64,000 nt of DNA, taken from the NCBI RefSeq assembly GCF_002494345.1, contig NZ_NXNI01000001.1, forward strand, positions 1,984,001 to 2,048,000. The letters are read 5' to 3'. The translations under genes and the position numbers were made by a program. Below the pieces are notes generated by a model, which did not search any database, was not told where the DNA came from, and saw nothing but the letters and a program-made list of their open reading frames with translations. Positions within the stretch are counted from its first letter, which is position 1; each line of letters starts with the position of its first letter. Shown here in pieces: positions 16,285-49,391 of this stretch. The DNA is from Natrinema ejinorense. Its GTDB lineage: Archaea; Halobacteriota; Halobacteria; Halobacteriales; Natrialbaceae.

Positions 16285-17171
16285 CGTCGATCACGCTGTC
16301 CCTGCGTCAGGCCGTCGATCGAGCCGGCTGGCCCTCGCCCCGGGCCGGGGCCCTGCCGTTCTCGTTCCCGTCGCGATCCCGGCCCGCCGCCGGGTGCGGC
16401 ATCGTCGTCCAATTCGGCGTCGATCTGCTCGGGGTCGACGCCGCGTGCCGTCGCGAGCGCTCGCTTCGCCGACCGCCGCACGTCGTCGCTGCGGTCGTTC
16501 AATCCGTGGCGCTCGAGGACCTCCTCTGCCCGGTCCGTCCCGAGGTCGCCGAGGCTGGTCGCGGCCTTCGCCCGGACGAACGCCTCCGGATCGCGGGCCA
16601 ACACTGCGGCGAGGATCCGAACCGTCTCGCCGACGTCGTCGGCGTACTCCCGCAGGTAGTCGGCCGCGTACTCCCGAACGCCGGAGTGGGGATCGTGTTT
16701 GAGTTGCTCGATCAGCAACTCCTCCGAGGCCGCACCCGTCTTCGAGAGGGCGATGACGGCGTTGCGCCGCACCCAGCCGCTGTCGTCCTCGAGAGCCGCC
16801 CGAAGCGGCTCGTCGTTTTCGGGTTCGGCCCGCGACTGGGCGACGACCGCCTCGGCGCGGACCCACTCGTGGTCGTCGTTCAGCGCCGCCCGAATCGCTG
16901 CCTCGGCCGCGTCACCACCATCAGAACTCGCGGCGAGGCCGAGCGCCTCGACCGCGAACTGTCTGACATCGGCCGATTCGTCCTCACCTACCCGCTCGGC
17001 AAGCCCCGCGATCGTCGCGGGTTCCAGCCCGCCGTCGTCGGCCGGATCGACCAATCCGAGCGCGGCGCGGCGGCGATCGCGCTCGCGATCGGCCTCGAGC
17101 CGAGTCCGGAGCGTTGCTTCGTCGTCGTCGGGTGCCCGGCCGCGGGCACTTCGGTTCGCGTAGTCGGTCAT
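16281..17171 (-). CDS. HEAT-repeat protein of the molybdoenzyme operon
   Basis: 296 residues with at least five HEAT/PBS-lyase-type repeats, seen as recurring units such as SADVRQFAVEALGL, HEWVRAEAVVAQSR, SGWVRRNAVIALSK, HSGVREYAADYLRE, EAFVRAKAATSLGD and SDDVRRSAKRALAT, spaced about 31-35 residues. Such solenoids bind partner proteins. The C-terminal 40 residues are Gly/Arg/Pro-rich. The ATG at 17171 overlaps the stop of the heme b subunit gene. A scaffold role in enzyme maturation is inferred. Confidence 0.85.
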   Translation of the reverse strand: MTDYANRSARGRAPDDDEATLRTRLEADRERDRRRAALGLVDPADDGGLEPATIAGLAERVGEDESADVRQFAVEALGLAASSDGGDAAEAAIRAALNDDHEWVRAEAVVAQSRAEPENDEPLRAALEDDSGWVRRNAVIALSKTGAASEELLIEQLKHDPHSGVREYAADYLREYADDVGETVRILAAVLARDPEAFVRAKAATSLGDLGTDRAEEVLERHGLNDRSDDVRRSAKRALATARGVDPEQIDAELDDDAAPGGGPGSRRERERQGPGPGRGPAGSIDGLTQGQRDRR

Positions 17172-18208
17172 TCCTTGATCCTCCAGTAGCTGACGAGCCA
17201 CGCGGCGACCGTCGCGAGGACGATCGCAGCGGGCCAGTTCGTCGCGGCACCGGCCAGCCAACTCGCGGATTCAGTCGCGCTGGCCACGGCACCGCTGTTG
17301 GCGCTTTCGCCGTCACTGTTGTCGCCGCTCCCGCCGGAATCGGCCGTTGCGAGCGTTCCGTCCTCCGTATCGAGCGTGAGGAACTCGTAGGACAGTGACT
17401 TCTGTCCGTTCGCCTCGTCGGCGCTCCCGTTCCAGATCGCGTACGTGAGGTACATCCGCTCGTCGCCCTCGAACGAGGCGTCGTACTCGCCACTTGCCTC
17501 GTGTTCGCGCTGGAACACGACGGCCCAGCCATCGTCGGTCCGTTCGCCGTTCGCCGCGACCGGCTGAGTCTCCGCGTTCGTCAGCGAGCCATAGCCCATC
17601 GCGTAGTAGTTCTGCCCGTACCGGTTATACGCGGACTGCGAGAGCGGGTTCCCCGCCGCCTGACCCGGCTTCGTTCGGTTATCCGGGTGTGGATAGGTGT
17701 ACATGTCGCCGCCCGGGTCGGACTCCGAGAACTGCCAACTCGAGCGCCAGTACCAGATGTTGACCGGATTACCGTTTGCCCCCATCGTGATCGGCGGCTC
17801 GTCCCCGCTCCGGAGCATGATCGCCGCGGCGTCGCTGTAGGCGTTCGGCTCGTTGATCTCCGTGTCCATCGTCGGGTCCTCCCACTCCATCCGGAAGGCG
17901 ACGTGCGTGTCGTTCGTCACGGACTGGACCGTCACGTCGTCGACGCTGCCGCCGCCATAGGGGGCAATCATCTGCTGGTTCTCGAGCGAGACGGTCTCGG
18001 TCGGCGCGTCCTTCCACGCCTCGGCGTCCGGCTCCGCCGGCACCTCGTTGACCGACAGGATCGACAGCGGACCGCCCGTGAGGACGGCGATTCCGACCAC
18101 CTGCACGACCATCACGAGACACAACACGATCGCGGCCAGCTTCGTCGCCTCGCGTGCGGCCGTACGATCGATCGAGAGCGGACCGATCTCGATTGGGTCC
18201 GAGCTCAC
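17168..18208 (-). CDS. Heme b subunit (ethylbenzene dehydrogenase gamma type)
   Basis: Electron-transfer subunit of 346 residues resembling the gamma subunits of ethylbenzene and dimethylsulfide dehydrogenases (PF09459 family), which hold one heme b through a Met and a Lys. Candidate ligands are a Met in the IMLRSGDEPPITMGANGN region and Lys in ANGQKSLSYEFLTL. Unlike soluble gammas it has a TM helix near residues 20-45 and another at about 322-342, so the heme domain would be tethered outside the membrane at both ends. It overlaps the TorD gene and the HEAT gene by four bases each. Confidence 0.85.
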   Translation of the reverse strand: MSSDPIEIGPLSIDRTAAREATKLAAIVLCLVMVVQVVGIAVLTGGPLSILSVNEVPAEPDAEAWKDAPTETVSLENQQMIAPYGGGSVDDVTVQSVTNDTHVAFRMEWEDPTMDTEINEPNAYSDAAAIMLRSGDEPPITMGANGNPVNIWYWRSSWQFSESDPGGDMYTYPHPDNRTKPGQAAGNPLSQSAYNRYGQNYYAMGYGSLTNAETQPVAANGERTDDGWAVVFQREHEASGEYDASFEGDERMYLTYAIWNGSADEANGQKSLSYEFLTLDTEDGTLATADSGGSGDNSDGESANSGAVASATESASWLAGAATNWPAAIVLATVAAWLVSYWRIKE

Positions 18209-18906
18209 GGCGTCTCACCTCCGTTCGCCGCGTCCGCCGACACGCTCGGGTCCGGGTGCTTCCCGTTATCGTAGGTCACCAGTTCCTCGACGAGGTCCGC
18301 CGCAGCCTCGTAGGCCGGTTCGTCCGTCGCCCGACGGAGGTCGTGTGCGAGCGCCGGCACGAACTCGACGAGGTGGTCGGCGAGTACCGTCGCCTCGGCC
18401 TGCCCGACGCGCTCGGCGGCGGTGGACTCGCCCGACTCGAGTGCGACGGCCCGCTGGCCGGCCAGCACCTGCGCCAACTCGAGTTCGGCGGCGGCGTGGT
18501 CCTGCCGCTCCGCGAAGTCGTCGCTGGGCTCGAGGCCGAACTCCTCCATCAGGCCGACGACGGTCGCGATCCGGCGCTGCTCGCTGCTAATCTCGTCACG
18601 GGTCGTGTAGTGGGCCTCGTAAGGGATCACGGCGTAGGTCCCGTCGTCGCTTGGGAGGCCGAACAGCTCGTTGTACGCCGTCCGGAGGTCCTCGACGTCG
18701 GTTTCCGCGAGGGCCTCGAGCAGTGCGGTCGCCTCCTCGGCGACGGTGAGCTGCTCGGCGGCCCGTTCGATCCCCGCTCGGGCCTCGGGGTCGAGCAGTT
18801 CGCGAACGGTGTCCTCGGTCGGGTAGGTAAACGCCGCGGCGGCGGTACAGTACAGCGTGGCCCGCGCGGCGTGATACTCGGGGTCGGGAGTGGTTGTCGG
18901 TGTCAT
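18205..18906 (-). CDS. TorD/DmsD/NarJ-type chaperone
   Basis: Cytoplasmic chaperone of 233 residues that holds the molybdoenzyme until its cofactors are in place and guards its Tat signal. The all-helical pattern and the segment YNELFGLPSDDGTYAVIPYEAHY match the TorD family core (Y-x-x-L-F ... P-Y-E). It lies seven bases after the Fe-S subunit gene and before the heme b subunit gene, as in other type II enzyme operons. Confidence 0.9.
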   Translation of the reverse strand: MTPTTTPDPEYHAARATLYCTAAAAFTYPTEDTVRELLDPEARAGIERAAEQLTVAEEATALLEALAETDVEDLRTAYNELFGLPSDDGTYAVIPYEAHYTTRDEISSEQRRIATVVGLMEEFGLEPSDDFAERQDHAAAELELAQVLAGQRAVALESGESTAAERVGQAEATVLADHLVEFVPALAHDLRRATDEPAYEAAADLVEELVTYDNGKHPDPSVSADAANGGETP

Positions 18907-18913
18907 TGGTCTG

Positions 18914-20095
18914 TTAGGGCTGGTTAGTCCACATCTCGCCCTCGCGGACCTCCATCTCTTCCTCGAAGGGCATGTCGACGACCTTGTTCCCCTTGCGGTC
19001 CCACCCCTTCACGCGATTTTCTTTGACGGTGTAGGTCTCGATGAGGCGGGTGGTCGCGCCGAACAGCTGGAGGATCCCGAGGGTGTGGTGGCTCGGATTT
19101 CGGACGCGATCCTGGACGATCTTGATCGATTCTTCGAAGGTGCTGCCGGGCCACTCGTTTTGTTTGTCCGCGGTGTTCGGCGTGAACATCTGGGTGAGGA
19201 ACTCCGGTGGCACGTGGTAGGGCGGCATGTAGAACACCTGCGGCCGGGTTCCGAACTGCGGGTACAGCGGGAGCGCGATCTTCTCGTCGCTCTTGGCGAG
19301 GTAGTTCACCGGACTCCGGCCGGCCGCCGCCGACGTGTTTCCGCCGGGGTGGCCGGCGTCGGGACCGCGATTGATGTTGCCGTGCAGGCGCGTCTTCCCG
19401 ATACACGAGGAGACACACCGCGGGACGTTCCCCTCCTCGATGCGCGGGAAGCAGCCGACCGGCTTCTCCGAGACGCCCGTCTCGGGGTTGTACATCGGCT
19501 TGTGGTACGGACAGGACTTCACGCACTTCCGGTAGCCCCGGCACCGCTCCTGATCGAGCAGGACGATCCCGTCCTCCTCGCGCTTGTAGATCGCCTTCCG
19601 CGGACACGCGGCGAGGCAAGCGGGGTTCTTGCAGTGGTTACAGAGCCGCGGCAGGTAGAACTGCCACATGTCGTGGTACTCGTCGTTCTCGAGGTCGCTC
19701 TCGACGACGTCGCCGGTGGGGTACTCGCCGTGAACCTGGTCGTCGCCCAGCGCGGGGTACTCCCACTCCTCTTTCTGTGCGATGTAGCCTTTGACTTTCT
19801 CGCCGTCCTCGGCGGCCTCGAAGATCGTCTCGTCGTCGCCGAGATCGTCGAGCAGCCGCATGTCCCAGCCCATCGGGTAGCCGCCGTAGGGCTCGGTCTC
19901 GACGTTCATCCACCACATGTACTCCTCGCCCTTCCCGCTCGTCCAGGTGGACTTGCAGGCAAAGGAGCAGGTGTTGCAGTTGATACACCGGTTGATGTTG
20001 ATGATCATCCCCCAGTGCCAGTCCCGCTCTTCGTCGCGGTGTTCGTAGGGGTAGCTGTGCTCGCGCCCGAGTTGTGGATTGTAGGTTTCCGGCAT
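18914..20095 (-). CDS. Four-cluster Fe-S subunit of type II molybdoenzyme (NarH/DdhB/SerB-like)
   Basis: Electron-wire subunit of 393 residues. Four cysteine groups are visible: CINCNTCSFAC (Cys37, 40, 43, 47), CNHCKNPACLAAC, CRGYRKCVKSC and CFPRIEEGNVPRCVSSC. In the third group a Tyr replaces one Cys, where NarH has Trp (CRGW), so that cluster should be [3Fe-4S], as in NarH, DdhB, SerB and EbdB. There is no signal peptide, so it would be carried across the membrane by the Tat signal of the catalytic subunit. Its ATG overlaps the stop of that gene. Confidence 0.93.
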   Translation of the reverse strand: MPETYNPQLGREHSYPYEHRDEERDWHWGMIININRCINCNTCSFACKSTWTSGKGEEYMWWMNVETEPYGGYPMGWDMRLLDDLGDDETIFEAAEDGEKVKGYIAQKEEWEYPALGDDQVHGEYPTGDVVESDLENDEYHDMWQFYLPRLCNHCKNPACLAACPRKAIYKREEDGIVLLDQERCRGYRKCVKSCPYHKPMYNPETGVSEKPVGCFPRIEEGNVPRCVSSCIGKTRLHGNINRGPDAGHPGGNTSAAAGRSPVNYLAKSDEKIALPLYPQFGTRPQVFYMPPYHVPPEFLTQMFTPNTADKQNEWPGSTFEESIKIVQDRVRNPSHHTLGILQLFGATTRLIETYTVKENRVKGWDRKGNKVVDMPFEEEMEVREGEMWTNQP

Positions 20096-23000
20096 CAGCT
20101 GTCACCTCCCTGCAACGAACCGCTCACGTAGTCCTGGAATAGTTCGTCCTTCCGCGCGTCGCCGGGCCACCAGTCCGCCTCCTCGTACTTCTCGACTTCC
20201 ACGAGGTCGTCCCGGTTCGTGCCGGTCGGTGCCCAGACGGTCTCCTCGTAGCCGTGCTCGAGTTCGGCCCCCTTCCAGACGATGTCGTCCTCGACCTCCT
20301 CGGAGATGTTCGGATCGCCGAAGACGGACTTGTGGACGAGGTCGTCGGTCTCCTGTGCGGGGTCGAGCCAGATGTTCGTCGTGACGTTGTACCCCTTGAC
20401 GCTGTCATCGTTCTCTTCGTCGTCCGGGAAGTGCTGGGGCCACCAGCCGTGCCAGATGGTCAGTTGGCCCATGTCGCCGGCCGAGCGCGGCCGCTGGCGT
20501 TCGCTGATCATCACGCGCACGACGAGGTCGCCGCGCTTGCCGCTGATCCGGACGTAGTCGCCGTTCTCGACGCCGATGTCCGCGGCGTCTTCGGGATGCA
20601 TCTCCACGAAGGCCTCGCCGAGCGGCGGCGTCTCCTCCGTCTCGCCCTCCCCTTGCGGGAACGAGAAGTCGTCGACCAGCCGTTCGGTGCCCTCCGGATC
20701 GGCGTTGGTCGACCCGAAGTCGCGCGACGCCCAGATCAGGTTCCAGTCCGTCATCCCCCACGAGGAGTGGGTGCGGTACTTCGGATGGGGCGTGTTGAAG
20801 TAGAACTGATACTCCTCGTCGTGATACAGCGGGTTCTCCTCGTCTTTCGCCTCGTCCCACTTCTTGTTCACCCCGTAGGGCGTCCCCTCGGGGCTCTCGA
20901 TGTGATCCAGATCGGCCCGGCCGAGCTCGAGGAAGCGGTCTTCCTCCTTGTGGAACTCCATGCGGCCGGTCTTGGTGTAGAACGGCCGATCCTCGTTGAT
21001 CTGGGAGTAGAAGGGGATCCGCGGATAGGTCTTCAACTGGAGCCGTTCCGGGCCGTCCTCGATGTCCTCGACGTCGATGTCGCGGGTCGTCATTCCCGCG
21101 TCCAGCGTCTGCTGGATGTAGTCGCGGACGTCCTTGTCGTCGTCGAGGAACTTATCGAAGTACGCCCGGTAGGAGTCGACGTTGCGTTCCTCCGGTGGGA
21201 TCTTCTCGTCGAGTTTCTCGGCGACGAGCGCGACGGCCTCGCCGTCCTGTTTCGTATCGTAGAGTGAATCCATGACCCCGTGGTCCATGTGGATGAACGG
21301 GTTCTCCGGGCCGACGGTGATGTCGGGATAGTCACACTCGAGCCAGGAGGGGACCGGGAGCACGATGTCCGCGTGGCGCGCGGAGTAGGTCATGTGCATG
21401 TCCGAGACGATCGAAAGCTCGTTGCTGGTGTCGGGGTGTTTGACGAAGTTCTCGATGACGTGCTCCTGATGTTTGGTCTGGTTCAGGAGGTTGCAGTTCA
21501 TCGTCCACAGGATCGTCGGCTTCGACATCGTGTACGACTCGGCGTTCGTCGGCACCACCGGCTCCTCGGCGTCGCCCTGTGGCACGAGATCGAGTTCGCG
21601 GTCGAAGTCGCCGCGGATCTCGTGGGCGTCTAGCTGCTCGCCGCCGAAGAACGCGAACGCGTAGCCGGGATACATCCCGTGGGCTGCGTTGCCGTCGGGG
21701 TTGACGTAGGAGGGGTAGCCGTCCAGCAGTTCGATCTTGTACTGGCCGGAGTAGTTGTAGTAGCCGGCCCCTCGCTCGCCGATGTTGCCCAGCATCGACT
21801 GGACGAAGAAGATCGTCCGCTGGAGCGAGTCGTTCGAGTGGAACCAGTGGTTGATCCCCTCGCCGGTGAACCACTGGGCCTTCTCGGCGTCGGCGAACTC
21901 CCGGGCGGTCGTCCGGAGCGCATCGGCCGGGATCGTCGTGATATCCTCGACCGTCTCCGGATCGTAGTTCTCCATGATGTTCGACTTCTGGCGGACGAAG
22001 TCGGTGTGGACCGCCACCGACCCGCCGTCGGCCAGACTGACGTCGGTGTCGACTTCGAGTTGCGGTGTCGCTCCCATCTCGTCGCCCACTTCTTCGCGGG
22101 TGACGGGGACCGGGTCGCCGTTCTCGTCGAGCATCACGAAATCGCCCCAGTCGTTTTCCTCGTGACGTTCCTCGCTGTCTTCTGCGGGCGGTTCGTGGTC
22201 CGGGAACACCTCGTGGGCGCGGAGGTACTTCCCGTTGTCCTGCCGGATCAACAGCGGCAGGGTCGTGAACTTCCGCATGAACTCCTCGTCGTAGAGTTCC
22301 TCGTCGATGATGACGTGGGCCATTCCCAACGCGAAGGCGGGATCGCTGCCCGGCCGAACGGGAAGCCACCGATCGCACTTCTGGACCGTCGGTGAGTAGT
22401 CGGGGTAGACGCCGACCATCTTCCCGCCGCGCTCGCGGGTCTCCTGGAGGAAGTGGTTGTCCGCGAGCTTGTTGTGGATCAGGTTCTTCCCCTGCATGAT
22501 CGTGTAGTCGGCGGCCCGCCAGGCCGACGCATCGGCGTCGCTGGTCTGATAGCCCGTCGTGATGACGTGGCCCGGCGGGAGGTCGGCGTACCAGTCGTAC
22601 TCCGTCCACTCGCAGCCGCCGAAGATCGAGGCCAGTCGCCGTCCGGCCCCGTGACGGGTGATCAGCCCGTCGGCCTTGATGGCGTTGAAGATGTGGAACC
22701 GCTTTTCGTCCTCCAGACTCGCCATCTTCTCGGCTATCAGGTCGATGGCTTCGTCCCAAGAGACGCGCTCGAATTCGTCCTCGCCGCGGCCCTCGGGGTT
22801 TGGATCGTCGGGACTCCACCCCTTGCGGACCATGGGATACTTGATCCGGCTCGGCTCGAACGTTCGGCGGTGGAGGGTCAGTCCCTTCATACAGCCGCGG
22901 GGGTTCCAGTGGCGGCTGACGCCCGCTTCCTCGTATCCGCCGGGACTCCCCGGACCGGGACTCCCTTCCTCTTCGTGGTAGATCTGTTCCGCCCTGATCG

Positions 23001-23256
23001 GCACGCCGTTTTTCATGTAGAAGTTCAGCGCACACGACTGCGTACAGTTGGGGTGACAGACCGTCCAGTCGACCCTGTCGTACGAGTAGATATCGTGATA
23101 GACCTGCTCCCAGTCCCGGTTCGGATAGGACTTGAGCGGGTTGTCGACCTGCGTGATCGAGTCGACCGTTTGCGTCGCTCCCCACGCGGAGCCGATGAGG
23201 GACCCGACTGCCCCCGTCCCGGCCGCCGCCAGGAAATCGCGTCGCGAGAGACTCAT
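20095..23256 (-). CDS. Type II DMSO-reductase-family molybdoenzyme, catalytic subunit (probable nitrate reductase)
   Basis: Exported Mo-bisPGD oxidoreductase of 1053 residues. The Tat motif SRRDFLA is at residues 4-10. The first Fe-S site reads C67-x3-C71-x3-C75 ... C122 (NPRGC), with Cys at the position where NarG has His, though His68 is next to it. The sequence pattern (WYADLPPGHVITTGYQTSDA, KMVGVYPDYSPTVQKCDRWLPV) follows NarG and its relatives SerA, DdhA, EbdA and ClrA. At the Mo-ligand position of NarG (Asp222 in QTD) this protein has QTSD (Ser239, Asp240). The substrate is not certain: nitrate is favoured by the neighbouring heme d1 operon; chlorate, selenate or an organic donor are alternatives. 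The ATG at 23256 is set by the Tat signal. Confidence 0.85.
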   Translation of the reverse strand: MSLSRRDFLAAAGTGAVGSLIGSAWGATQTVDSITQVDNPLKSYPNRDWEQVYHDIYSYDRVDWTVCHPNCTQSCALNFYMKNGVPIRAEQIYHEEEGSPGPGSPGGYEEAGVSRHWNPRGCMKGLTLHRRTFEPSRIKYPMVRKGWSPDDPNPEGRGEDEFERVSWDEAIDLIAEKMASLEDEKRFHIFNAIKADGLITRHGAGRRLASIFGGCEWTEYDWYADLPPGHVITTGYQTSDADASAWRAADYTIMQGKNLIHNKLADNHFLQETRERGGKMVGVYPDYSPTVQKCDRWLPVRPGSDPAFALGMAHVIIDEELYDEEFMRKFTTLPLLIRQDNGKYLRAHEVFPDHEPPAEDSEERHEENDWGDFVMLDENGDPVPVTREEVGDEMGATPQLEVDTDVSLADGGSVAVHTDFVRQKSNIMENYDPETVEDITTIPADALRTTAREFADAEKAQWFTGEGINHWFHSNDSLQRTIFFVQSMLGNIGERGAGYYNYSGQYKIELLDGYPSYVNPDGNAAHGMYPGYAFAFFGGEQLDAHEIRGDFDRELDLVPQGDAEEPVVPTNAESYTMSKPTILWTMNCNLLNQTKHQEHVIENFVKHPDTSNELSIVSDMHMTYSARHADIVLPVPSWLECDYPDITVGPENPFIHMDHGVMDSLYDTKQDGEAVALVAEKLDEKIPPEERNVDSYRAYFDKFLDDDKDVRDYIQQTLDAGMTTRDIDVEDIEDGPERLQLKTYPRIPFYSQINEDRPFYTKTGRMEFHKEEDRFLELGRADLDHIESPEGTPYGVNKKWDEAKDEENPLYHDEEYQFYFNTPHPKYRTHSSWGMTDWNLIWASRDFGSTNADPEGTERLVDDFSFPQGEGETEETPPLGEAFVEMHPEDAADIGVENGDYVRISGKRGDLVVRVMISERQRPRSAGDMGQLTIWHGWWPQHFPDDEENDDSVKGYNVTTNIWLDPAQETDDLVHKSVFGDPNISEEVEDDIVWKGAELEHGYEETVWAPTGTNRDDLVEVEKYEEADWWPGDARKDELFQDYVSGSLQGGDS

Positions 23257-23499
23257 CGCCGACCACCTCGTGTGGCGGAGCGCTTCGGTTGCATACACGC
23301 CGACGTTACGATTCGACTCTTTAACCGAGATTGCACGTTCCCACGCTCTGAGGACGCTACCGCCGAAATCCTGCTAATGGGGGGTATTCATATGGGGGCG
23401 ACTCTCTCGAGCGTGATTCTCGGGCATCCGCGAGGAGGAGACCGTCTATTCGGCAAGCGATCGAAACCGAAGGAGCGGTGAATCGACGCGGTCGCCGGC

Positions 23500-24798
23500 T
23501 CACGACTCCTCGAGGCCGGCGTCGAGATCGAAGAGCCGGTGTGTGGCCTCGATGATCGCATCGTCGCCGTCGCGTGCAGCCGTCCGAAGGCGTTCGGTCG
23601 GCGTTCCGAGGAGCGACCCGGTCAGCGCGCTGGCGAAGTCCTCCAGGACGGCCTCGGGATCGTCCCCGTTCTCGAGGCGTGCCCGCGCCTGCTCGAGTTC
23701 GCGCTCACGGATCGTCGCCGCAGTGCGGTGCAGTCCGCGGAGCGTGTCCTCGGCGCGGTTCTCGCGTTCCCGATCGACGAACGACGCGACCGCGTCGGTC
23801 ACCGCAGCTTCGACTGCCGGGATCGCGTCCCGCCGACCCGAGACGGCCGCCTCGATCCCGGCCTGGATTTCGTCGAGATCCACGACCGGAACGGCGGAGT
23901 GTCGAACCGCCTCGGCGACGTCCGGCGGGTTCGCCAGGTCGACGACGACCGTCCCGTGTTCGAGTTCCCGCATCGTTTCGGCGGTCACCACTGGGTCCGC
24001 CGCACCCGTCGCCGTCACGACGGCGTCCGCGTCGGCTATCGCCGCTCCCAGCGATTCGAGCGGCCAGTACCGCCCGTCCGCCGTGGCTATCTCCGGCGCG
24101 CTCGAGCGGTTGACCACGTCGATGCGACTCTCCCATCGATGCGTGGCTGCCTTCGCGACCGAGGTCGCCATCTCACCCGCGCCGACGACGACGAGACGGT
24201 CCGGCACTCGGCCGCGAGCCTCGAGTCGCTTACAGGTCGCACTCCCGTAGCTGACCGCCCCCTCGTTGATGTCGGTCTCGTCGCGGCAGCGCCGTCCCAC
24301 CGAGACGGCTGCGTCCGCCGTCCGCGTCACCACGCCGCCGGCGAGTCCCGCCTCGAGTGCCGTCTCGAACGTTCGACGGAGCTGTCCGAGGACGTGGGCC
24401 TCGCCGACGACGGTGCTCTCGAGTCCGCAGGCGACGCGGAACAGGTGGTCGACGACGTCGAGTCCCGTCTCCGTTCGAGCGCCGTCGGGATCGCCGAGCG
24501 CCTCGCCTGCGACGCGAAGCCCCTCGTCCCGATCCGCCGGCGTCCGAGTGCTGCAGTACGCCTCCACCCGGTTGCACGTCGAGAGGACGACCGCCTCGGT
24601 GACGCGGTCGTGGCCTGCGATCCGACGGGCGACCTCGAGCGGTTCGGCCGGCCGGATCGTTCCCAACTCGTCCGTCGAGTGCGTGGCGCAACTGACCCGG
24701 CAACACGCGAGCCGGCGGACGCTCTTCGGCGTCGTTGCGACCGTCGCCGAGTCGAGGTCGGTTCTCGCGTCGGTGGGTGCCAAGTCGGGTGCGTGCAT
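23500..24798 (-). CDS. Glutamyl-tRNA reductase paralogue in the heme d1 operon
   Basis: 432 residues of the HemA family, which reduces glutamyl-tRNA to glutamate-1-semialdehyde, the entry to tetrapyrroles. The catalytic STCNRVE motif is intact (Cys75), with GLESTVVGEAHVLGQLR and the NADPH-domain VVVGAGEMATSVAKAA following. It has about 25 extra residues at the N-terminus and two more Cys (ACC at 31-33). It starts four bases after the radical SAM gene and ends the operon. The likely role is extra precursor supply for heme d1 when the reductase is induced; whether it is the only HemA cannot be seen here. Confidence 0.9.
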   Translation of the reverse strand: MHAPDLAPTDARTDLDSATVATTPKSVRRLACCRVSCATHSTDELGTIRPAEPLEVARRIAGHDRVTEAVVLSTCNRVEAYCSTRTPADRDEGLRVAGEALGDPDGARTETGLDVVDHLFRVACGLESTVVGEAHVLGQLRRTFETALEAGLAGGVVTRTADAAVSVGRRCRDETDINEGAVSYGSATCKRLEARGRVPDRLVVVGAGEMATSVAKAATHRWESRIDVVNRSSAPEIATADGRYWPLESLGAAIADADAVVTATGAADPVVTAETMRELEHGTVVVDLANPPDVAEAVRHSAVPVVDLDEIQAGIEAAVSGRRDAIPAVEAAVTDAVASFVDRERENRAEDTLRGLHRTAATIRERELEQARARLENGDDPEAVLEDFASALTGSLLGTPTERLRTAARDGDDAIIEATHRLFDLDAGLEES

Positions 24799-24802
24799 CT
24801 GT

Positions 24803-26023
24803 CTACTCGAGTACTGCGGGCGCGTCGACCGGTGGCGCGTGGTCGGTCGGTAGTTCCTCCGTCCTGTACTCGGCGTCCGTGAGATAACACCGCGGATCCT
24901 CGGCCCAGAGGTCGTCGTAGACCGCGGCGGCGCGGGCGCGGGAGTTCCCGCCGCAGACCTCCTTCCACGGACAGCGGCCGCATTTCCCGTTCAGGTGGTC
25001 TGTCGGCTCGGCCAGCTCGGACCAGAGCTCGCTTTCGGCGAGGATCTCGTCGAGGCGCTGTTCGCGGACGTTCCCGAGCGTGTACTGCGAGAGGAACATG
25101 CTCGGGTGGACGTCGCCGCGGTGGTCGACGTTGACGACCTTCGGGCCGGCGTCGCCGTTCTTGACCACCCGACCGGGGCCGTCGTCGAACAGGAGCTCTC
25201 GAGCCCGTTCGGCGTGAGCCGGCATGTCCTCGCGGATGCGGTGATAGAGGTAGACCGCGTCGGCGTAGTTGCCGGCGGTCAGGATCTGCATGTCGGGGTG
25301 GGTCTCGGCGAGCGTTTTGGTGCGCTCGTAGAGGTAGTCCACGATTTCGCGCGTGCGCTCGACGGAGAGGTCGGCGTCGGTGATGTCGCCGCCGCGCCCG
25401 GAATAGATGAGGTGAAAGAGGTTGACGCGGTCGATTTCCTCCTCGACGGCGAGATCGATCACCGCGGGGACGTCGTCGACGGTTCCCTGGGTCATCGTAC
25501 ACCGGATCCCCGTCCCCATCCCGGCGTCGCGGGCGTTACGGAGCCCGTTGCGCGCTCGCTCGAAGGCCCCGTCAACGCCGCGGAACTCGTCGTTCGTCGC
25601 CCCGACGCCGTCCAAGGAAACGCCGACGTACTGCATCCCCGCGTCGGCCACGTCTCGGGCGCGTTCCTCCGTGAGGAAGGTCCCGTTGCTCGAGGCGATC
25701 GGACGCAATCCCTGTTCCGAGGCGTACCGGGTGAGTTCGGCGATGTCGTCGCGGAAGAACGGCTCCCCGCCGCTAAAGACGAGTACCGGCACGTTCACCG
25801 CGGCCAGCGAGTCGATGAAGGCCTTGGCCTCGGCGGTCGACAGCTCCTCGCTGTCGCGCTCGTCGCAGGCCCCGAAGTAGCAGTGCTTACACCGCAGGTT
25901 GCACGCGGGGGTCGTATTCCAGACGACGAGCGGGACGAGCGCATCGCTCGTGTGACGCTTCTCGTAACGGATCTGTTCCGGTCGATTGTCGAGTCCTCTG
26001 ATGAGTCGTGTGAGATCGATCAT
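24803..26023 (-). CDS. nirJ: Radical SAM heme d1 biosynthesis protein, NirJ-like
   Basis: 406 residues. The radical SAM cluster motif CNLRCKHC is at Cys41, Cys45 and Cys48, and the C-terminal domain carries a second cysteine set (CGRCPWKEVC ... CYL) typical of the NirJ/AhbC/AhbD group. NirJ removes two propionate side chains of the d1 precursor; AhbC and AhbD act in archaeal heme synthesis. NirJ is preferred because the gene sits between a NirF-like gene and a HemA paralogue in an operon headed by a heme d1 enzyme. The ATG at 26023 overlaps the stop of the NirF-like gene. Confidence 0.85.
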   Translation of the reverse strand: MIDLTRLIRGLDNRPEQIRYEKRHTSDALVPLVVWNTTPACNLRCKHCYFGACDERDSEELSTAEAKAFIDSLAAVNVPVLVFSGGEPFFRDDIAELTRYASEQGLRPIASSNGTFLTEERARDVADAGMQYVGVSLDGVGATNDEFRGVDGAFERARNGLRNARDAGMGTGIRCTMTQGTVDDVPAVIDLAVEEEIDRVNLFHLIYSGRGGDITDADLSVERTREIVDYLYERTKTLAETHPDMQILTAGNYADAVYLYHRIREDMPAHAERARELLFDDGPGRVVKNGDAGPKVVNVDHRGDVHPSMFLSQYTLGNVREQRLDEILAESELWSELAEPTDHLNGKCGRCPWKEVCGGNSRARAAAVYDDLWAEDPRCYLTDAEYRTEELPTDHAPPVDAPAVLE

Positions 26024-27162
26024 TGGTCCACCTCCGGGCGGAAGATGCCGCTCGGTTTCTCCCCGAAACCGTCGATTCGGCGACCGACTGCGACGTCCGC
26101 CGGGCGATCGTCGGCCAGCGGTCGCGTGTCGAGCACCGCGAGGTCGGTCCGCTCCATGTTCCCGACGTAACACTCCTCGCCGTCGGGTCCGAAGACGACG
26201 TGGAGCGGTTCCCCGCCGATCTCGACGCGGCCGGCGACCGACAGGTCTGTCAGGTTCAGGATCGTCACGAACGGCTCGTCGTAGGAGTCGACGACGGCGT
26301 AGCGGCCGTCCGGCGTCACGCCGGCAAAGCCGGTCGTCGTTCCGACGTCGAGCAGCGTTTCGGTCGGCGACGCCTCGCCCGCCGCGGCCGCCTCGAGATC
26401 GACGACGCCGACCCGCTCGTCCTCGCGGGCCGGGAACAGCCCGTACCGATACTCGGGCCCGTCCGCGACGGCGAAGCCGTGGGGGTTCGTCCCCGTCTCG
26501 GCGGTACAGCGGACGCGCTCGGCGGCCGCGTCGACGAACGAGGCCGACGAGCCGCCGGCGTGGTTAACGACCAGGAGCCCGTCGTCGTCGAGTACGTACA
26601 GGTCGTGTGGCTCCGCGCCGACGGGGATCCGCGCCTCGACCTCGAGCCGGGGGTCCGCGCCGAGCACGGTGATTTCGTCCTCGATCTTCTGGCCCACGTA
26701 GAGGCGGTCGTCCGGGCCGATTCGCATGCCGGAACTCCGCGAAAGCGGCCGCGTCCCCGCGGGCTCGAGTCGGCCGTCCTCGTCGATATCGAACGCGAGG
26801 ACGCCCGGATCGGACGCCGCCGGCAGATCGACGGCAGTCCCGACGAACAGCGAGTCACCGCCGGGGCCCAGCGCGCTCCCGACGGGCATCGTTCCGAGCC
26901 GGTCGACGCGCTGGACGGTCTCCAGGCGCTCGAGGTCGAGTACCTCGAGATGGGCGCTGGCGATGTACAGCAGATACGCGACGGGTTCGTCCGGGTGGAA
27001 CAGCGCCGTATGCGGGTACCGTCCCTCGCCGACCTCCGCGAGGACCTCGCCCTCGGAGAGATCGGCCGCGCTGAAGTGGCTGCTCGCGGCGTTCTTGACT
27101 ATCGTCGGCGTGCGGGACGATCCCTCGGTCGCGACGGCTGCGCTATCGGTATCGAAAGTCAT
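26020..27162 (-). CDS. NirF-like beta-propeller, heme d1 biosynthesis (copy 1)
   Basis: 380 residues of WD/YVTN-like blades (for example GGEPLHVVFGPDGEECYVGN, ALGPGGDSLFVG). NirF and NirN share their fold with the d1 domain of NirS and bind late d1 intermediates. No signal peptide or TM helix is seen, so this protein should be cytoplasmic, unlike exported bacterial NirF. It overlaps both neighbours by four bases, so all are co-translated. It is clearly related to copy 2 but not a close duplicate. Confidence 0.75.
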   Translation of the reverse strand: MTFDTDSAAVATEGSSRTPTIVKNAASSHFSAADLSEGEVLAEVGEGRYPHTALFHPDEPVAYLLYIASAHLEVLDLERLETVQRVDRLGTMPVGSALGPGGDSLFVGTAVDLPAASDPGVLAFDIDEDGRLEPAGTRPLSRSSGMRIGPDDRLYVGQKIEDEITVLGADPRLEVEARIPVGAEPHDLYVLDDDGLLVVNHAGGSSASFVDAAAERVRCTAETGTNPHGFAVADGPEYRYGLFPAREDERVGVVDLEAAAAGEASPTETLLDVGTTTGFAGVTPDGRYAVVDSYDEPFVTILNLTDLSVAGRVEIGGEPLHVVFGPDGEECYVGNMERTDLAVLDTRPLADDRPADVAVGRRIDGFGEKPSGIFRPEVDQ

Positions 27163-28319
27163 GGATATCTCCCTCTGTCGGTACGGAAACAGCCCGCAGG
27201 CCCGGCCCCGTCGGGCAAATCTATCTTCGCCACGATCGGATCGTGGGCGGGTTCGGATCGGGGGGAATCGCCCGTCGAGCGGACCACGTCGGCATCGATG
27301 ACGGTCACCGCGTCGCCGTCGACGCTCGGAACGTAACAGACCCGGCCGTCCGCGCTGAACCGCGGATGACGCGGCGTCGGGCCAGTTTCGACTCGCGCGA
27401 CGATCTCGAGGGTCGCCGGCTCGAGGAACGTGACGCGGTCGTCGTCGTACGCATCGACGGCGACCAGCGCCCCGTCGGGAGTCGCGTCGGTGAACGCGGT
27501 GGCCGTTCCCAGCGGGACGCGTTCGACGGCCGTCGAATCGGCGTCGCCGCGTCGAACCGCGTTCACGTCGACCGCCGTAACGCCGTCACCGTCGGTGTTC
27601 CCGACGAACCACCGATCGCTGGCCGGAACGGCCGTCCCCCCTCGCGGGTTCGGAGCCGGAACCGAGCCGAGCACCGACGCCTCGAGTGCGTCCACGAACG
27701 TGACGCTTCCCGCGTCGACGTTGTTCACGCCCACCAGTCCGTACGCCGGGTCGTACGCCAGGTCCTGGGGACCGCCGGCGACCGCGAACCGGTCGCGTTC
27801 CGCGAACGGCGGCGTTCCGGAAATGCGGACGACCTCGTCGGCGTCTTTCAGTGCGACCCAGACGTCGTTTCGGACGTCGACTGTTAGCCCGGCGGCCTTC
27901 CCCGTCGGGAGTTCCTCGACCAGTTCGAGCCCATCGCCGTCCGTTCGGAAGACGGCGAGTCCGGGCCGATCGTCCCCGGGAAGGCCCCCGTACGTGCTGA
28001 CGAACAGGTACCGTCCGGTCCGGGTCAGGACCGCTCCCACCGGCGCAGTACCGACCGTCTCGACGCGATCCGCGACGGAGAGCGTCCGGAGATCGACGAT
28101 CTCGAGCGCGTTCGACGCCATGTAGGGGACGTACGCCCAGCGTCCGCCCGGGTGGGCCGCGAGCGCGTGAGGCTGGCGTCCCTCGCCGACTCGGCCGATC
28201 GGCTCGTGGCGATCCGCATCGATCACGGTCAGCCCCGCTCCGCGGAGGTGCTTGACGAGCGCGAGTGGCCCCCGTGCGTGCCGGGTCGCTGCCGTCGTTT
28301 CGGTGTGGGTGTCGGACAT
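27159..28319 (-). CDS. NirF-like beta-propeller, heme d1 biosynthesis (copy 2)
   Basis: 386-residue propeller, again without signal peptide. Blades include GRQPHALAAHPGGRWAYVPYM, EIVDLRTLSVADRVETVG and PTPRHPRFSADGRVCYVPSV. The opening GEGRQPHALAAHPG in this copy matches GEGRYPHTALFHPD in copy 1, which shows common origin. It begins 26 bases after the CuA-d1 gene. One copy could act as NirF (last oxidation/dehydrogenation step) and the other as a NirN-like carrier; the sequence does not say which. Confidence 0.75.
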   Translation of the reverse strand: MSDTHTETTAATRHARGPLALVKHLRGAGLTVIDADRHEPIGRVGEGRQPHALAAHPGGRWAYVPYMASNALEIVDLRTLSVADRVETVGTAPVGAVLTRTGRYLFVSTYGGLPGDDRPGLAVFRTDGDGLELVEELPTGKAAGLTVDVRNDVWVALKDADEVVRISGTPPFAERDRFAVAGGPQDLAYDPAYGLVGVNNVDAGSVTFVDALEASVLGSVPAPNPRGGTAVPASDRWFVGNTDGDGVTAVDVNAVRRGDADSTAVERVPLGTATAFTDATPDGALVAVDAYDDDRVTFLEPATLEIVARVETGPTPRHPRFSADGRVCYVPSVDGDAVTVIDADVVRSTGDSPRSEPAHDPIVAKIDLPDGAGPAGCFRTDRGRYP

Positions 28320-28345: not shown

Positions 28346-30190
28346 TCAGTGTCCCTCAGCGCGGACGCCGAGGAACTTCCCGGTCGGTGCCAGCAGGTCC
28401 TCGATCTGGGTCAGCAGTTCGCCCGTGTTCGGATCGAACACGAGGATCGATTCGTTGTCGCCCATCCAGACGCTGATGTACACCTTCTCGCCGTCGCGGC
28501 TGAACTCGGGATGGATCGCGGCGGCGGCACCCCACTGGCTGCAATCGATCTCCTGGTCGACCTCGAGGGTCTCGGGGTCGATCGTGTAGACGTAGGCGTC
28601 GTCCTCGCTGTCGGTGAGGATGACGTCGGCCCAGACGTAGTCGCTGTTCTCGTGTTTCCTGATGAACAGCCCCGATCCCCTGACGTCGATCATCTCTTCG
28701 ACCTCCCAGGTCTCCGTGTCCCAGACGCCGACGCTCGGCGCGCCAGCGTGGGTAGTAAAGGCGAGGTCCTCGTCGGGGTAGAGCGCGCCGGGGCCGGGGT
28801 GTGGCACCCCGTCCATCGGAATCGCGGCGACGTGGCTCCGTTCTTGCGTGTCGATGACGTCCATCTGGTTGTCCGTCTGCGAGGCGATCATGAAGTAGCG
28901 ACCGTCCTCCGTGAAGAATCCGTCGTGGAGGGTCCGACCGCATTCGATGGTCGCCACGACCGGGAAGTCCTCCTGCGTGTAGTCGATGAGCCACACTTCA
29001 CCGCCCTCCTTGAGCCCCGCGAGGAACAGCCCTTCGTGGGGAACGTCGTACAGCGAGCAGACGCGGCTCCCGAGACTCTCGCCGTCGGGGTTGACGGTGT
29101 GGGTCGGGATCCGCTTGATCGGCTCCATAGTCTCGGCGTCACAGATGACGAGGTGGTTCGGGTTGTAGAACCCGCCGATCACGTAGTTGCCGTCCCGGGA
29201 GACCGCGATGTCCCGGGCGTCCGTCCCGGCGTCGGCGACGGCGACCCGTTCGAAGTCGAACAGATCGATCTTGTACATCTCCCCCTGTCTCGATTGCGTG
29301 TACACGTACGCGCCCTCACGCGTCTGCTCGGGGAGGTCGGGATGGAAGTCGTGAACGTGGATCGCCTTCCCCACGTTCTCGACCCGCTGCATGAACTCGT
29401 CGTTGACCGTGTCGATCATCGCCACCGAACCGTTGTTGCGTTCGGTGACGACCATGATGTCCCGCAGATCGAGGTCGTGTTGGGGCTCTTGGGCCAGTTC
29501 GCTCTCTTCTTTGAGGATCTCGTGGCGCTCTTTCAGCGTCTCCATGTCGGTGAAGTCGACCCTGTCGACGGACTCGCCCTCGGGAACGACGTACAGTTGG
29601 CCGTTCATCTGGGCGTGACCGTCCCCGCAGTAAATGTTACACTCGAAGTCGAAGGTCCCCTCCTTGTCGGTGACGAACGTGACCGAATCGATCACCTCGT
29701 CGTCCGTGCTCTCGGGGAGATTGACCGGCCCGACGTCGTACGGCTCCTCGAGGTAGAACGTGTGGTACTTGAAGTCCGGGTTCTGCTCGAAGGTCGCCTT
29801 CGTGAACTCGATCGTGAGCTCCGTGTTCGGAGCCACTCGGATCTCTTGGGGTCGGAACTCGTATTGATGTGCCGACAGCTGAACGGTCTCGCTTTGCTGT
29901 GCGTCCGGTGTCTCTTCGTTCGACGAGTCCCCATCTTCGTCGTCGTCGTCCGTCGGCCCCGGCGCATCGTCGTCGTCGTTACTGGCACAGCCCGCGAGTG
30001 CTGCCGACGCCGCCACGATGCCGCTCGTCTTCAGGAACGTCCGACGACCCGGACTCGGGATCCCCATCTCGAAGTGGAGTTCGTCGTCGAAATCCAGGTT
30101 CTTCGCGATCTCTCTCGAAGCGCTCAAGTGGCGCTTGATTCGTTCCTCGTGGTCCGCCATCGACTGGGCCGCTGACTCGGATTGTGACAT
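28346..30190 (-). CDS. CuA domain-cytochrome d1 fusion, probable nitrite reductase
   Basis: 614-residue exported enzyme. A 48-residue hydrophilic leader precedes a Tat lipoprotein signal (RR at 49-50 in GRRTFLKTSG, lipobox LAGC with Cys68). Residues about 100-205 are a cupredoxin with a full CuA set: His143, Cys184, Cys188, His192, Met195 (CNIYCGDGHAQM). From about 240 to 614 is an eight-bladed cytochrome d1 propeller that tracks NirS closely: His278 (KAIHVHDF) at the heme ligand position, catalytic His422 (LHDGFF) and His464 (VPHPGPG), and the ending PTGKF. It has no CXXCH heme c motif. I infer nitrite reduction to NO with CuA as electron entry, probably from a halocyanin. It heads the d1 operon. 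Confidence 0.9.
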   Translation of the reverse strand: MSQSESAAQSMADHEERIKRHLSASREIAKNLDFDDELHFEMGIPSPGRRTFLKTSGIVAASAALAGCASNDDDDAPGPTDDDDEDGDSSNEETPDAQQSETVQLSAHQYEFRPQEIRVAPNTELTIEFTKATFEQNPDFKYHTFYLEEPYDVGPVNLPESTDDEVIDSVTFVTDKEGTFDFECNIYCGDGHAQMNGQLYVVPEGESVDRVDFTDMETLKERHEILKEESELAQEPQHDLDLRDIMVVTERNNGSVAMIDTVNDEFMQRVENVGKAIHVHDFHPDLPEQTREGAYVYTQSRQGEMYKIDLFDFERVAVADAGTDARDIAVSRDGNYVIGGFYNPNHLVICDAETMEPIKRIPTHTVNPDGESLGSRVCSLYDVPHEGLFLAGLKEGGEVWLIDYTQEDFPVVATIECGRTLHDGFFTEDGRYFMIASQTDNQMDVIDTQERSHVAAIPMDGVPHPGPGALYPDEDLAFTTHAGAPSVGVWDTETWEVEEMIDVRGSGLFIRKHENSDYVWADVILTDSEDDAYVYTIDPETLEVDQEIDCSQWGAAAAIHPEFSRDGEKVYISVWMGDNESILVFDPNTGELLTQIEDLLAPTGKFLGVRAEGH

Positions 30191-30445: not shown

Positions 30446-30886
30446 ATGACGACAGACAGCACGAAGTCGAAACCGCGGGGCGACCGGATGACGACTGACT
30501 TCTTCGACGACGTCCTGACCGAGTATCTCGAGGACGACCGCATCGAGGACGGCGTCGTGAGACTCCGCCTGGACAACGGGCGAACTCGTCGGTTCGTCAT
30601 CGGCGACGACACCGAGTCGATGGATTCGTTCGAATACGTCCGTCGCGAACTCGAGGAAGTACAGCACCTGATCGACGAAAACGAGGATCGCTTCGACCAA
30701 CCGGTCGAGTTCTCCGTCCCGGTCCGGGACGAGGAACAGGTCCTCGAGGAAGTCGAAGACGAAGGGGCGGTCACGACCTGGATCAAGCCGGAGGGGTTCG
30801 GACTCCTGCTCGAACACCTCCACGCGATGGCCGGCGACGAGACTCCTGCGGAACCGACCGACGAAATGGACGCGACGACCGACTGA
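30446..30886 (+). CDS. Conserved acidic hypothetical protein, divergent from the d1 operon
   Basis: A 146-residue soluble acidic protein with no recognised family. It reads as a small alpha/beta domain (DGVVRLRLDNGRTRRFVIGD, VEFSVPVRDEEQVLEEVE) with a disordered acidic end. A TATA-like TCTAAATG lies about 22 bases before the ATG. It shares its upstream region with the CuA-d1 operon, so joint regulation is possible, but nothing in the protein suggests a regulator. Confidence 0.65.
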   Translation: MTTDSTKSKPRGDRMTTDFFDDVLTEYLEDDRIEDGVVRLRLDNGRTRRFVIGDDTESMDSFEYVRRELEEVQHLIDENEDRFDQPVEFSVPVRDEEQVLEEVEDEGAVTTWIKPEGFGLLLEHLHAMAGDETPAEPTDEMDATTD

Positions 30887-46925: not shown

Positions 46926-49391
46926 CTACATGAGATAGAACAGCGGGAACAGGATCACCCAGACGATGTCGACGAAGTGCCAGTAGAGCCCGAAGTACTC
47001 GACTGGCCGGTGGTCCCGGAGGTAGGCATCGACGGACACGACGCGGTAGATCATGAACCCGGCGATGAGCAAGCCGAGGATGACGTGGAGCGCGTGCAGC
47101 CCCGTCGTCACGAAGTACATCGAGTACTGGAGTTCGGTGAACCAGTAGATGCCGTGGGCGAACTCCTGGCCCCACTCGTAGCCTTTGATTCCGAGGAACG
47201 TGAGCCCGAGCAACAGCGTGGCCCCCATCGACGCCAGCAGGCCGCGCTTATTCTCGCGTTCGGCCATCACCAGCGCGAGGATGACGGTAAAACTCGAGGT
47301 CAACAGGACGTAGGTGTTGACGAGACCGACCACCTCGGAGGGCGGGACGGGCTCGATCTCGCCCCAGCCGGTGTGGAGCCGCATGAACACGTACGCCCCG
47401 ATGACGGCACCGAAGACGACGACGTCGGATGCGAGGAAGAACCAGACACCGGTTTTCGTGGTTCCGACGCCCTCGAAGGGCCACCGCTCGGCGATCGCCA
47501 TCTCGGGGGCGTCGAACCGCTCGCGACCGTACTGGAAGAGCGTGACCAGGAGGATGCCGACACCGACGACCGAGAGCGCGGGATAGACCAGGGTGGTCGA
47601 ACCGACGCCGGAAACCTCCGCCCCGCGCGGGATGGCGAACTCGGCGACCCACGGGGTCAGCCCCGACAGTCCGAGGAACGTGACGAACATGCCGATCCCG
47701 ATTCCGAACGGCCAGATACTCGCGTGATCCTCGTGGCCCGCCTCGAGGGGCTCGGGGTGGTCGACTCGCTCGTGGCCGGTCGCGCCGCCGTCGGTCGCGG
47801 TCGCATCGTCGACGAACTCGAGGCGGCCGCTGGCGTAGCTGGGCCGATCGGGCCAGTTCTCGAGGGGCGGCGGCGAGGTGGTCGCCCACTCGGCGGTTCG
47901 GGAAAACGCCCACGGGTTGTCGGGTGCGTCGGGGCCCGAAACCAGGCTCTTTGCGAGCGTGACGAAGACGAGCAGGACGGACAGACCGAGGACGAACGCT
48001 CCGACGGTCGCCAGCTGGTGGTAGAGCTGTGCTCCCTCGCCGTAGTGGAAGACACGCCGGGGCGTCTCCCAGGCGATGAACATCGGGAAGTACAGCAGGT
48101 TGAACCCGAAGAAGTAGACGGCGAAGCTGAGTTTGCCGAGCCGCTCGGAGTACATCTTCCCGGTGATCTTGGGCCACCAGTAGTAGAGCCCGCCGATCAG
48201 CGCGGTGACGCCCGCGACCATCACGTAGTGGAAGTGAGCGACGACCCAGTAGGTGCCACGGAACTCGTAGTCGAGGACGACGGCACCAAGGAAGACGCCC
48301 GTAATGCCGCCGATGATGAACAACACGAGCGCACCCAGCGTGAAGAGAAACGGCGTCGTAAACCGGACGCGGCCCTTGACCATGGTATAGATTATCGCGA
48401 AGACCATCAGGTCGAAGGGTAACGAGATCCCGATCGTCGTCGCCATAAAGAGCGTCTTGATCGGGAGGTTGATCGTGGTCAGGAACATGTGATGCATCCA
48501 GACCAGGAAGGACTGCACCGCAACCAGCACCATCGCGATGATGACCCACTTCCGACCGACGAGTCGGCGTCCGGTAAACGTCTGTACCGTCTCGAATATG
48601 ATCCCAAGCGCGGGGAAGAAGACGATGTAGACCTCCGGATGGCCGAAGAACCAGAAGATGTGTCCCCAGAGCAGGCTCGAGCCCTGCTCCGTCGACGAGA
48701 AATACTGCGTCAGCAGGATACGGTCGGTGAGCATGAGGATCAATGCGGCCAGCAACGCCGCGAAGGCAAACAGCATCATCCAGACGGTCAGCAGCGTCCC
48801 CCAGGTGAACAGGGGCATGTTCCAGAGCCCCATCCCCTCGGCGCGACAGCAGTGGATCGTCGTCAGGAAGTTCACGGAACCGAGGGTAACCGACATGGTA
48901 AACAGGACCAACGCGAGGATCGTCGTGTTTCCGCCCGTGGTCAGCGCGTAGCCGGGATTGTAGATCGGCACGTTCAGCGGGGCGTACATGTACCAGCCGT
49001 TGGCCCACGACGTTCCCTGAAAGAACGAGAGCAAGACGAGAATCCCCGAAAACAGGTAGAACCAGTAGCTCAATGCGTTCAGCCGTGGGAACGCGAGGTC
49101 TTTCGCCCCGATCTGTAAGGGGACGACGTAGTTCGCGAACGCGAAGCCAAGCGGCGAAATGAACCAGAACACCATCAGGAGTCCGTGGACCGAAACCGCC
49201 TGATTGTACTCGGTGTTCGTGAGCAGTCCGGTCCCACCGGCCTCCCAGAGGTGGAGGCGAAACACCAGTGCCAGCACGCCGCCCGCCACGAGCAAGAACA
49301 GCGCGGTCACCAGATAGAGGATCCCGACGTCTTTGTGGTTGGTCGTCACCAGCCACCGCTTGATCGTCGTCCGCGGGGGCAACTCACTCAT
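46926..49391 (-). CDS. Cytochrome c oxidase subunits I and III, fused
   Basis: 821-residue heme-copper oxidase chain. Subunit I fills about residues 1-480: heme ligands in HGLLMVFWF and HFHYVMVAG, the CuB and Tyr crosslink site in FGHPEVYIV, and the second and third CuB His in WMHHMF. After a linker of about 60 polar residues the five-helix subunit III follows (GVWFFLASDVVVFGAVIGAY, TGLHALHVILGL). Subunit II with its CuA domain is not adjacent. On the minus strand an upstream 42-codon frame (49512-49384) overlaps its start in an ATGAGTGA arrangement. Confidence 0.95.
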   Translation of the reverse strand: MSELPPRTTIKRWLVTTNHKDVGILYLVTALFLLVAGGVLALVFRLHLWEAGGTGLLTNTEYNQAVSVHGLLMVFWFISPLGFAFANYVVPLQIGAKDLAFPRLNALSYWFYLFSGILVLLSFFQGTSWANGWYMYAPLNVPIYNPGYALTTGGNTTILALVLFTMSVTLGSVNFLTTIHCCRAEGMGLWNMPLFTWGTLLTVWMMLFAFAALLAALILMLTDRILLTQYFSSTEQGSSLLWGHIFWFFGHPEVYIVFFPALGIIFETVQTFTGRRLVGRKWVIIAMVLVAVQSFLVWMHHMFLTTINLPIKTLFMATTIGISLPFDLMVFAIIYTMVKGRVRFTTPFLFTLGALVLFIIGGITGVFLGAVVLDYEFRGTYWVVAHFHYVMVAGVTALIGGLYYWWPKITGKMYSERLGKLSFAVYFFGFNLLYFPMFIAWETPRRVFHYGEGAQLYHQLATVGAFVLGLSVLLVFVTLAKSLVSGPDAPDNPWAFSRTAEWATTSPPPLENWPDRPSYASGRLEFVDDATATDGGATGHERVDHPEPLEAGHEDHASIWPFGIGIGMFVTFLGLSGLTPWVAEFAIPRGAEVSGVGSTTLVYPALSVVGVGILLVTLFQYGRERFDAPEMAIAERWPFEGVGTTKTGVWFFLASDVVVFGAVIGAYVFMRLHTGWGEIEPVPPSEVVGLVNTYVLLTSSFTVILALVMAERENKRGLLASMGATLLLGLTFLGIKGYEWGQEFAHGIYWFTELQYSMYFVTTGLHALHVILGLLIAGFMIYRVVSVDAYLRDHRPVEYFGLYWHFVDIVWVILFPLFYLM

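Follow-up and report, generated by a model that had tools for sequence, protein, structure and literature searches.

A haloarchaeal protein that joins a predicted CuA domain to a NirS-type heme d1 propeller

Architecture of the fusion protein

The window, the whole 64,000-nucleotide stretch of Natrinema ejinorense DNA that was analysed, contains an open reading frame (positions 28346–30190, minus strand) that runs from ATG to TGA over 614 codons with no internal stops. Its 614-residue product was assigned as a CuA–heme d1 fusion and Tat lipoprotein on the basis of sequence, Pfam and NCBIfam models, alignment and fold search. The initial annotation, which gave no strand for the gene, had proposed a Tat lipoprotein signal, and a leader of the twin-arginine type (PSPGRRTFLKTSG...LAGC) with a lipobox is present at residues 49–68 (RRTFLKTSG...LAGC; 29987–30046, minus strand), read from the sequence and kept in the 12 genomes that carry the fusion. 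It is preceded by an unusual N-terminal extension of approximately 48 residues, which is conserved in the carriers (12 aligned).

The cupredoxin domain, residues 100–205 (29576–29893, minus strand), is defined by NCBIfam models, alignment and the solved Thermus CuA fragment 2lln. In NCBIfam, residues 100–201 match the CuA end of lactonase-type NosZ (5e-16) and residues 169–205 match CoxB (3e-5). The aligned ligands are His143 (29762–29764, minus strand) and those of the loop C184-x3-C188-x3-H192-x2-M195 (29606–29641, minus strand), which are in register with 2lln; the ligand numbering first proposed (His143, Cys184, Cys188, His192 and Met195) is correct at all five positions. The nearest relatives of this domain in its own genome are only 31–41% identical, and the origin of the CuA domain is unresolved.

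The eight-bladed heme d1 propeller, residues 241–608 (28367–29470, minus strand), is supported by Pfam, alignment and fold search, with a Cytochrom_D1 match over the same residues (E=1e-77). In alignments with bacterial NirS, His278 (29357–29359) falls at the heme d1 ligand position, and His422 (28925–28927) and His464 (28799–28801), all on the minus strand, align with the two catalytic histidines, as the initial annotation had claimed. The CxxCH motif is absent from the full sequence of the fusion protein, which also has no match to a cytochrome c domain in Pfam or NCBIfam. These absences, with the Cytochrom_D1 and CuA matches, bear out the build that had been put forward: as far as sequence analysis can confirm it, a CuA cupredoxin stands in place of heme c and is joined to a NirS-type d1 active site. 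The five CuA ligands and His278, His422 and His464 are invariant among 12 aligned fused proteins, whose identity falls to 49%, and are kept in all 16 fused proteins of the set used for the tree.

A chance or frame artefact as the source of the fusion was ruled out, the reading frame being intact and conserved in 12 genomes.

Structure prediction, one of the checks originally suggested, produced an AlphaFold model with a mean pLDDT of 72 and low confidence at the CuA loop 187–191 and at loops 463–465 and 513–525. Owing to this low confidence in the ligand loops, the geometry of the model was left out of the evidence. Compared with solved folds, the model is closest to cd1 NirS (Z 43), followed by NirN (41) and NirF (35), with other propellers at approximately 30 or less.

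Comparison with NirS and other known systems

The yardsticks for the d1 domain were NirS, NirN and NirF proteins encoded in annotated nir clusters of bacteria. At the three d1 positions, NirS has H-H-H (8 of 8 true NirS references), NirN has H-D-H, with Asp at the His422 position in all references, and NirF has H-Y-H. The H-H-H triad is present in 16 of 16 CuA–d1 proteins and also in a set of d1-only paralogues. The d1 domain of the fusion is 41% identical to that of Ruegeria NirS, 30% to NirN and 24–28% to NirF. In the tree, which has few references and a midpoint root, the CuA–d1 and d1-only proteins form a clade beside NirS and NirN (support 90/93 and 93/92). Within the limits of that sampling and rooting, the alignments and tree indicate that the fusion has the active site of NirS without nesting among the bacterial NirS proteins. 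One Azospirillum protein annotated as cytochrome D1 (labelled NirS_Azo2) was rejected as a NirS, being NirN-like with H-D-H, and was left out of the NirS references.

The fusion shares with NirS (of Pseudomonas and Paracoccus, the Ruegeria type being the nearest seen) the d1 propeller with its proximal and both catalytic histidines, export from the cytoplasm, and a gene cluster that includes accessory genes for a radical SAM enzyme and d1 propellers. It differs in having a CuA cupredoxin where the NirS references have a heme c domain with CxxCH, in being a Tat lipoprotein whereas NirS has a short cleavable leader, and, in the tree of few references, in falling in a separate clade. The CuA domains of nitrous oxide reductase (including L-NosZ) and of cytochrome oxidase subunit II have the same cupredoxin with a His and C-x3-C-x3-H-x2-M, and NosZ too pairs CuA with a propeller; in the fusion, however, the CuA domain is N-terminal and would serve a heme d1 site rather than CuZ or a heme–copper site. 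A copper domain fused to a NirS-type protein is also described in Chloroflexi, in which some C1-C2-NirS proteins have an N-terminal cupredoxin or plastocyanin, but there the two cytochrome c domains are retained, and the copper domain is added to them without, in the sections available to us, any claim that it is CuA (PMC8756737).

The accessory gene module

The fusion gene is followed on the minus strand by four genes separated by 26, −4, −4 and 4 bases. These encode propeller A, a signal-less d1-type propeller of 386 residues (27159–28319; domain match, pocket residues and model); propeller B, its signal-less paralogue of 380 residues (26020–27162; pocket residues and profile comparison), which overlaps A by 4 bases; a radical SAM/SPASM enzyme related to NirJ and AhbC (24803–26023; family models, motifs and tree), which overlaps B by 4 bases; and, 4 bases past the radical SAM gene, a second glutamyl-tRNA reductase, HemA (23500–24798; family models). 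The order fusion, propeller A, propeller B, radical SAM gene is common to all carriers, and HemA comes next in all carrier loci but one (L029).

Propellers A and B are paralogues of 33% identity that share with NirF and NirN the fold and the position of the d1 proximal histidine. In propeller A the pocket reads H-Q-N/R, so that the proximal position is kept and Gln and Asn/Arg occupy the other two, and in propeller B it is H-H-H, with all three d1 histidines kept; neither has the H-Y-H of NirF or the H-D-H of NirN. No hydrophobic leader was found in 15 homologues of each propeller, whereas the NirF and NirN references have one. In a fold search, the model of propeller A matched NirS (39.6), NirN (36.2) and NirF (36.0), and unrelated eight-bladed propellers reached 35.0, a small margin for NirF. 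A profile comparison with NirF reached a probability of 98%; since high scores are to be expected of any propeller in such a comparison, pocket residues and gene order were used instead.

The radical SAM enzyme has intact motifs CxxxCxxC (CNLRCKHC) and CX2CX5CX21C (CGRC-x5-C-x21-C), and meets both cysteine motifs given for NirJ, CX3CX2C and CX2CX5CX20–21C, in an account that also covers the role of NirJ (PMC10548856). Curated models do not separate NirJ from AhbC for this protein. In the tree it forms its own clade (99/95) beside AhbC and NirJ, apart from AhbD and outside the bacterial NirJ clade. The two propellers and this enzyme are not orthologues of NirF, NirN or NirJ when clade, motif or localisation is considered, and for that reason heme d1 synthesis can only be inferred.

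The AhbC/AhbD pair and the housekeeping HemA of the genome are located elsewhere, so the radical SAM and HemA genes of the module are extra copies. The bacterial nir clusters compared likewise contain nirJ and nirF, and in three of them hemA, a tetrapyrrole-entry gene, is nearby. The shared intermediate, 12,18-didecarboxysiroheme, is already made by haloarchaea (PMC3403918). By gene content, the cluster appears to hold extra copies of the step types needed for heme d1 from this compound, as expected for a heme d1 pathway, itself inferred, that branches off the siroheme-dependent heme synthesis of haloarchaea.

Distribution and denitrification context

The fusion is rare, being carried by 12 of 292 haloarchaeal genomes scattered over four genera: Natrinema (among them N. 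thermotolerans, N. pallidum, N. altunense and N. gari), Halorubrum (H. salipaludis and H. amylolyticum), Natronomonas (sp. LN261) and Halobiforma (H. haloterrestris and H. nitratireducens). This answers the suggestion in the initial annotation that its spread among archaea be searched. No fusion was found outside the Halobacteria in a scan of 84,980 species, in plasmid records or in 393 genomes of the phylum. The species scan, which used two exact peptide patterns and would miss divergent homologues, returned nine loci, all haloarchaeal, and none of 72,556 plasmid records contained a full-length match. In the 393 genomes, the sole match outside the carriers was an ordinary cytochrome c–d1 NirS (L053, genome G583), on a single contig of 3.2 Mb.

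The d1-only paralogue is signal-less, lacks CuA and has the full NirS-type histidine triad (L013–L019; for example, L031:9454–10737); a membrane protein and a molybdopterin-binding oxidoreductase are encoded near it. It is restricted to carriers of the fusion (7 of 12, compared with 0 of 280 other genomes), as if it shared the heme d1 supply of the module, and may act in the cytoplasm as a heme d1 enzyme or carrier.

The source genome also encodes NirK, NosZ, two qNOR-like proteins and an eNOR-like reductase with a CuA subunit. NirK is present in 11 of the 12 carriers, the source genome included, and a role for the fusion as replacement for a missing NirK was rejected on this ground. The genome of Natrinema gari (G092; L005, L023 and L044) yielded neither a NirK above the family cut-off nor an eNOR-like gene; the CuA–d1 enzyme, with its activity inferred, may be the only NO-forming nitrite reductase there.

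At the position of the catalytic Tyr the eNOR-like reductase has Gln (HGTQQ vs HPEVY), the mark given for eNOR (PMC8756737). It occurs in 11 of 12 carriers and 42 of 280 other genomes (p=3e-8) and, within genus, in 7 of 8 carriers and 2 of 8 others (p=0.04); none of these frequencies takes the relatedness of the genomes into account. In the two Halobiforma species the reductase sits a few kilobases from the fusion, and a divergent gene for SCO1, the copper insertion factor of CuA sites, adjoins the fusion gene; the reductase is also close to the fusion in one Natrinema genome (G144). At three loci (L021, L030 and L046), the eNOR-like NO reductase and its CuA subunit are encoded near the CuA–d1 gene; those from Halobiforma also have SCO1. 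The cluster of the fusion has no recognised gene for halocyanin, the donor proposed in the initial annotation.

Downstream of the module lies an operon for a nitrate-reductase-like molybdenum oxidoreductase, found there in the window and in four relatives (5 of 12 carriers). On the minus strand it encodes a molybdopterin alpha subunit of DMSO-reductase type II (20095–23298; family models and structure-level relative), whose closest solved relative is Kuenenia NxrA, and, from the annotation of the window, an Fe–S beta subunit (18914–20095), a delta chaperone (18205–18906) and an EB_dh gamma subunit (17168–18208). The enzyme is nearest to NxrA and only distantly akin to nitrate reductase. Its alpha subunit is rare (24 of 292 genomes) and 77–97% conserved, and in some other haloarchaea (G053, G031, G128 and G146) coordinates place the enzyme 9–13 kb from a NirK-family gene. 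Two Natrinema assemblies (G034 and G091) have the gene in two pieces that overlap, and it is absent from a genome of the same species (G005). Natrinema species have been said to lack NarG (PMC8400030), and the enzyme encoded at 20095–23298 may be their unidentified nitrate reductase.

On the other side of the fusion gene, and divergent from it, a small acidic protein of no known family (30446–30886, plus strand; window annotation and locus comparison) is conserved in 10 examined loci of Natrinema and Halorubrum. Farther away, at 46926–49391, an oxidase has COX1 and COX3 fused in one protein of 821 residues.

Proposed function and alternative explanations

A d1-type nitrite reductase, as proposed in the initial annotation, is the reading favoured alike by conservation, fold search and gene neighbourhood, with nitrite turnover and the cofactors as inferences. 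The fusion is probably a dissimilatory, NO-forming heme d1 nitrite reductase in which electrons enter via a binuclear CuA site and not heme c, an assignment inferred from sequence, fold and gene context without biochemical evidence.

The radical SAM enzyme and the two signal-less propellers would convert didecarboxysiroheme to heme d1 in the cytoplasm, where the apoprotein would be loaded with the cofactor before being exported, folded, by Tat. Cytoplasmic finishing and loading are inferred because propellers A and B, unlike bacterial NirF and NirN, have no signal peptide. After export, CuA would be inserted by a SCO1-type factor and reduced by a small copper protein, the inferred donor; electrons would then pass from CuA to heme d1, at which nitrite would be reduced to NO, and an eNOR-like or qNOR enzyme would remove the product. 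The sequence features and gene associations can be read from the genomes, and cofactor identity, direction of the reaction, donor and place of loading are inferred from them.

Nitrite reduction does not require the fusion, since nearly all carriers have NirK, and in most carriers a second nitrite reductase looks redundant. This apparent redundancy, and the adjoining molybdenum enzyme closest to the nitrite oxidoreductase NxrA, would suit a protein that binds CuA and heme d1 but oxidises NO to nitrite, as in NO detoxification, or reduces oxygen, a reaction that cytochrome cd1 also catalyses. The NirS-like active site speaks against such a function, which is considered unlikely, and the association with an NO reductase fits the production of NO; moreover, two nitrite reductases in one genome are not unusual, being found in 5.3% of nir genomes (PMC10999283).

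It is less likely again, and would be surprising, that the fusion is a heme d1 maturation factor, an archaeal counterpart of the dihydro-heme d1 dehydrogenase NirN in which CuA replaces the cytochrome c of NirN as electron acceptor. NirN too joins a d1 propeller to an electron-transfer domain, the module has no NirN gene and the fold match to NirN (Z 41) falls little short of that to NirS, but the Asp that all NirN references have in place of His422 and the higher d1 identity to Ruegeria NirS (41%) than to NirN (30%) weigh against it, and carriers without the d1-only paralogue would be left without a heme d1 terminal enzyme. The least probable account, to which very little weight is given, holds that true heme d1 is beyond the capacity of the cluster, so that the fusion binds a d1 precursor or ordinary heme and serves as a sensor or has an unknown activity. 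It draws on the radical SAM enzyme, which falls outside both the NirJ and the AhbC clade, and on the propeller pockets that differ from those of NirF and NirN; strict conservation of both catalytic histidines, the extra HemA and radical SAM copies that travel with the fusion and the intact NirJ-type cysteine motifs are against it.

Returning to the nitrite reductase, a wider scheme can be drawn, which is put forward tentatively as having somewhat less than an even chance of being right. In it, nitrite respiration would be free of c-type cytochromes: heme d1 would be made from an intermediate of the siroheme pathway by separate cytoplasmic enzymes and loaded before Tat export, and the reduction of nitrite, of NO (by the eNOR-like enzyme) and of N2O (by NosZ) would all draw electrons through CuA entry sites supplied by small copper proteins.

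Relation to earlier work and implications

The gene has been seen before under other descriptions. It carries the label nirS, by orthology, in 21 genomes of haloarchaea (PMC11052009, Table 6), and in a survey a protein from Halobacteriota without a c domain serves as an outgroup (PMC10999283); both are almost certainly the CuA–d1 family or its d1-only paralogue, and the genera are the same. Neither main text, in the portions available to us, mentions the CuA domain or the gene module, and a text search of the literature found no description of a CuA–d1 enzyme or naming of its CuA domain or gene set. In a 2021 survey of denitrification in haloarchaea, NirK alone was reported and NirS was stated to be absent (PMC8400030). 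What is called new here is the pairing of a known catalytic domain with a known electron-transfer domain, together with an unrecognised set of accessory genes.

Counts of nirS in saline metagenomes either miss CuA–d1 genes or file them as classical NirS. NirS has been described as needing heme c as its point of electron entry. If the assignment is right, the CuA–d1 enzyme would show that this entry module can be swapped for copper, as happened in the NO reductases, and would explain the use of heme d1 by a group poor in cytochrome c; the gene set would then be an archaeal route to heme d1 that is independent of NirF and NirN. The fusion and what appear to be its own cofactor-making genes point to a nitrite respiration that would need no cytochrome c.
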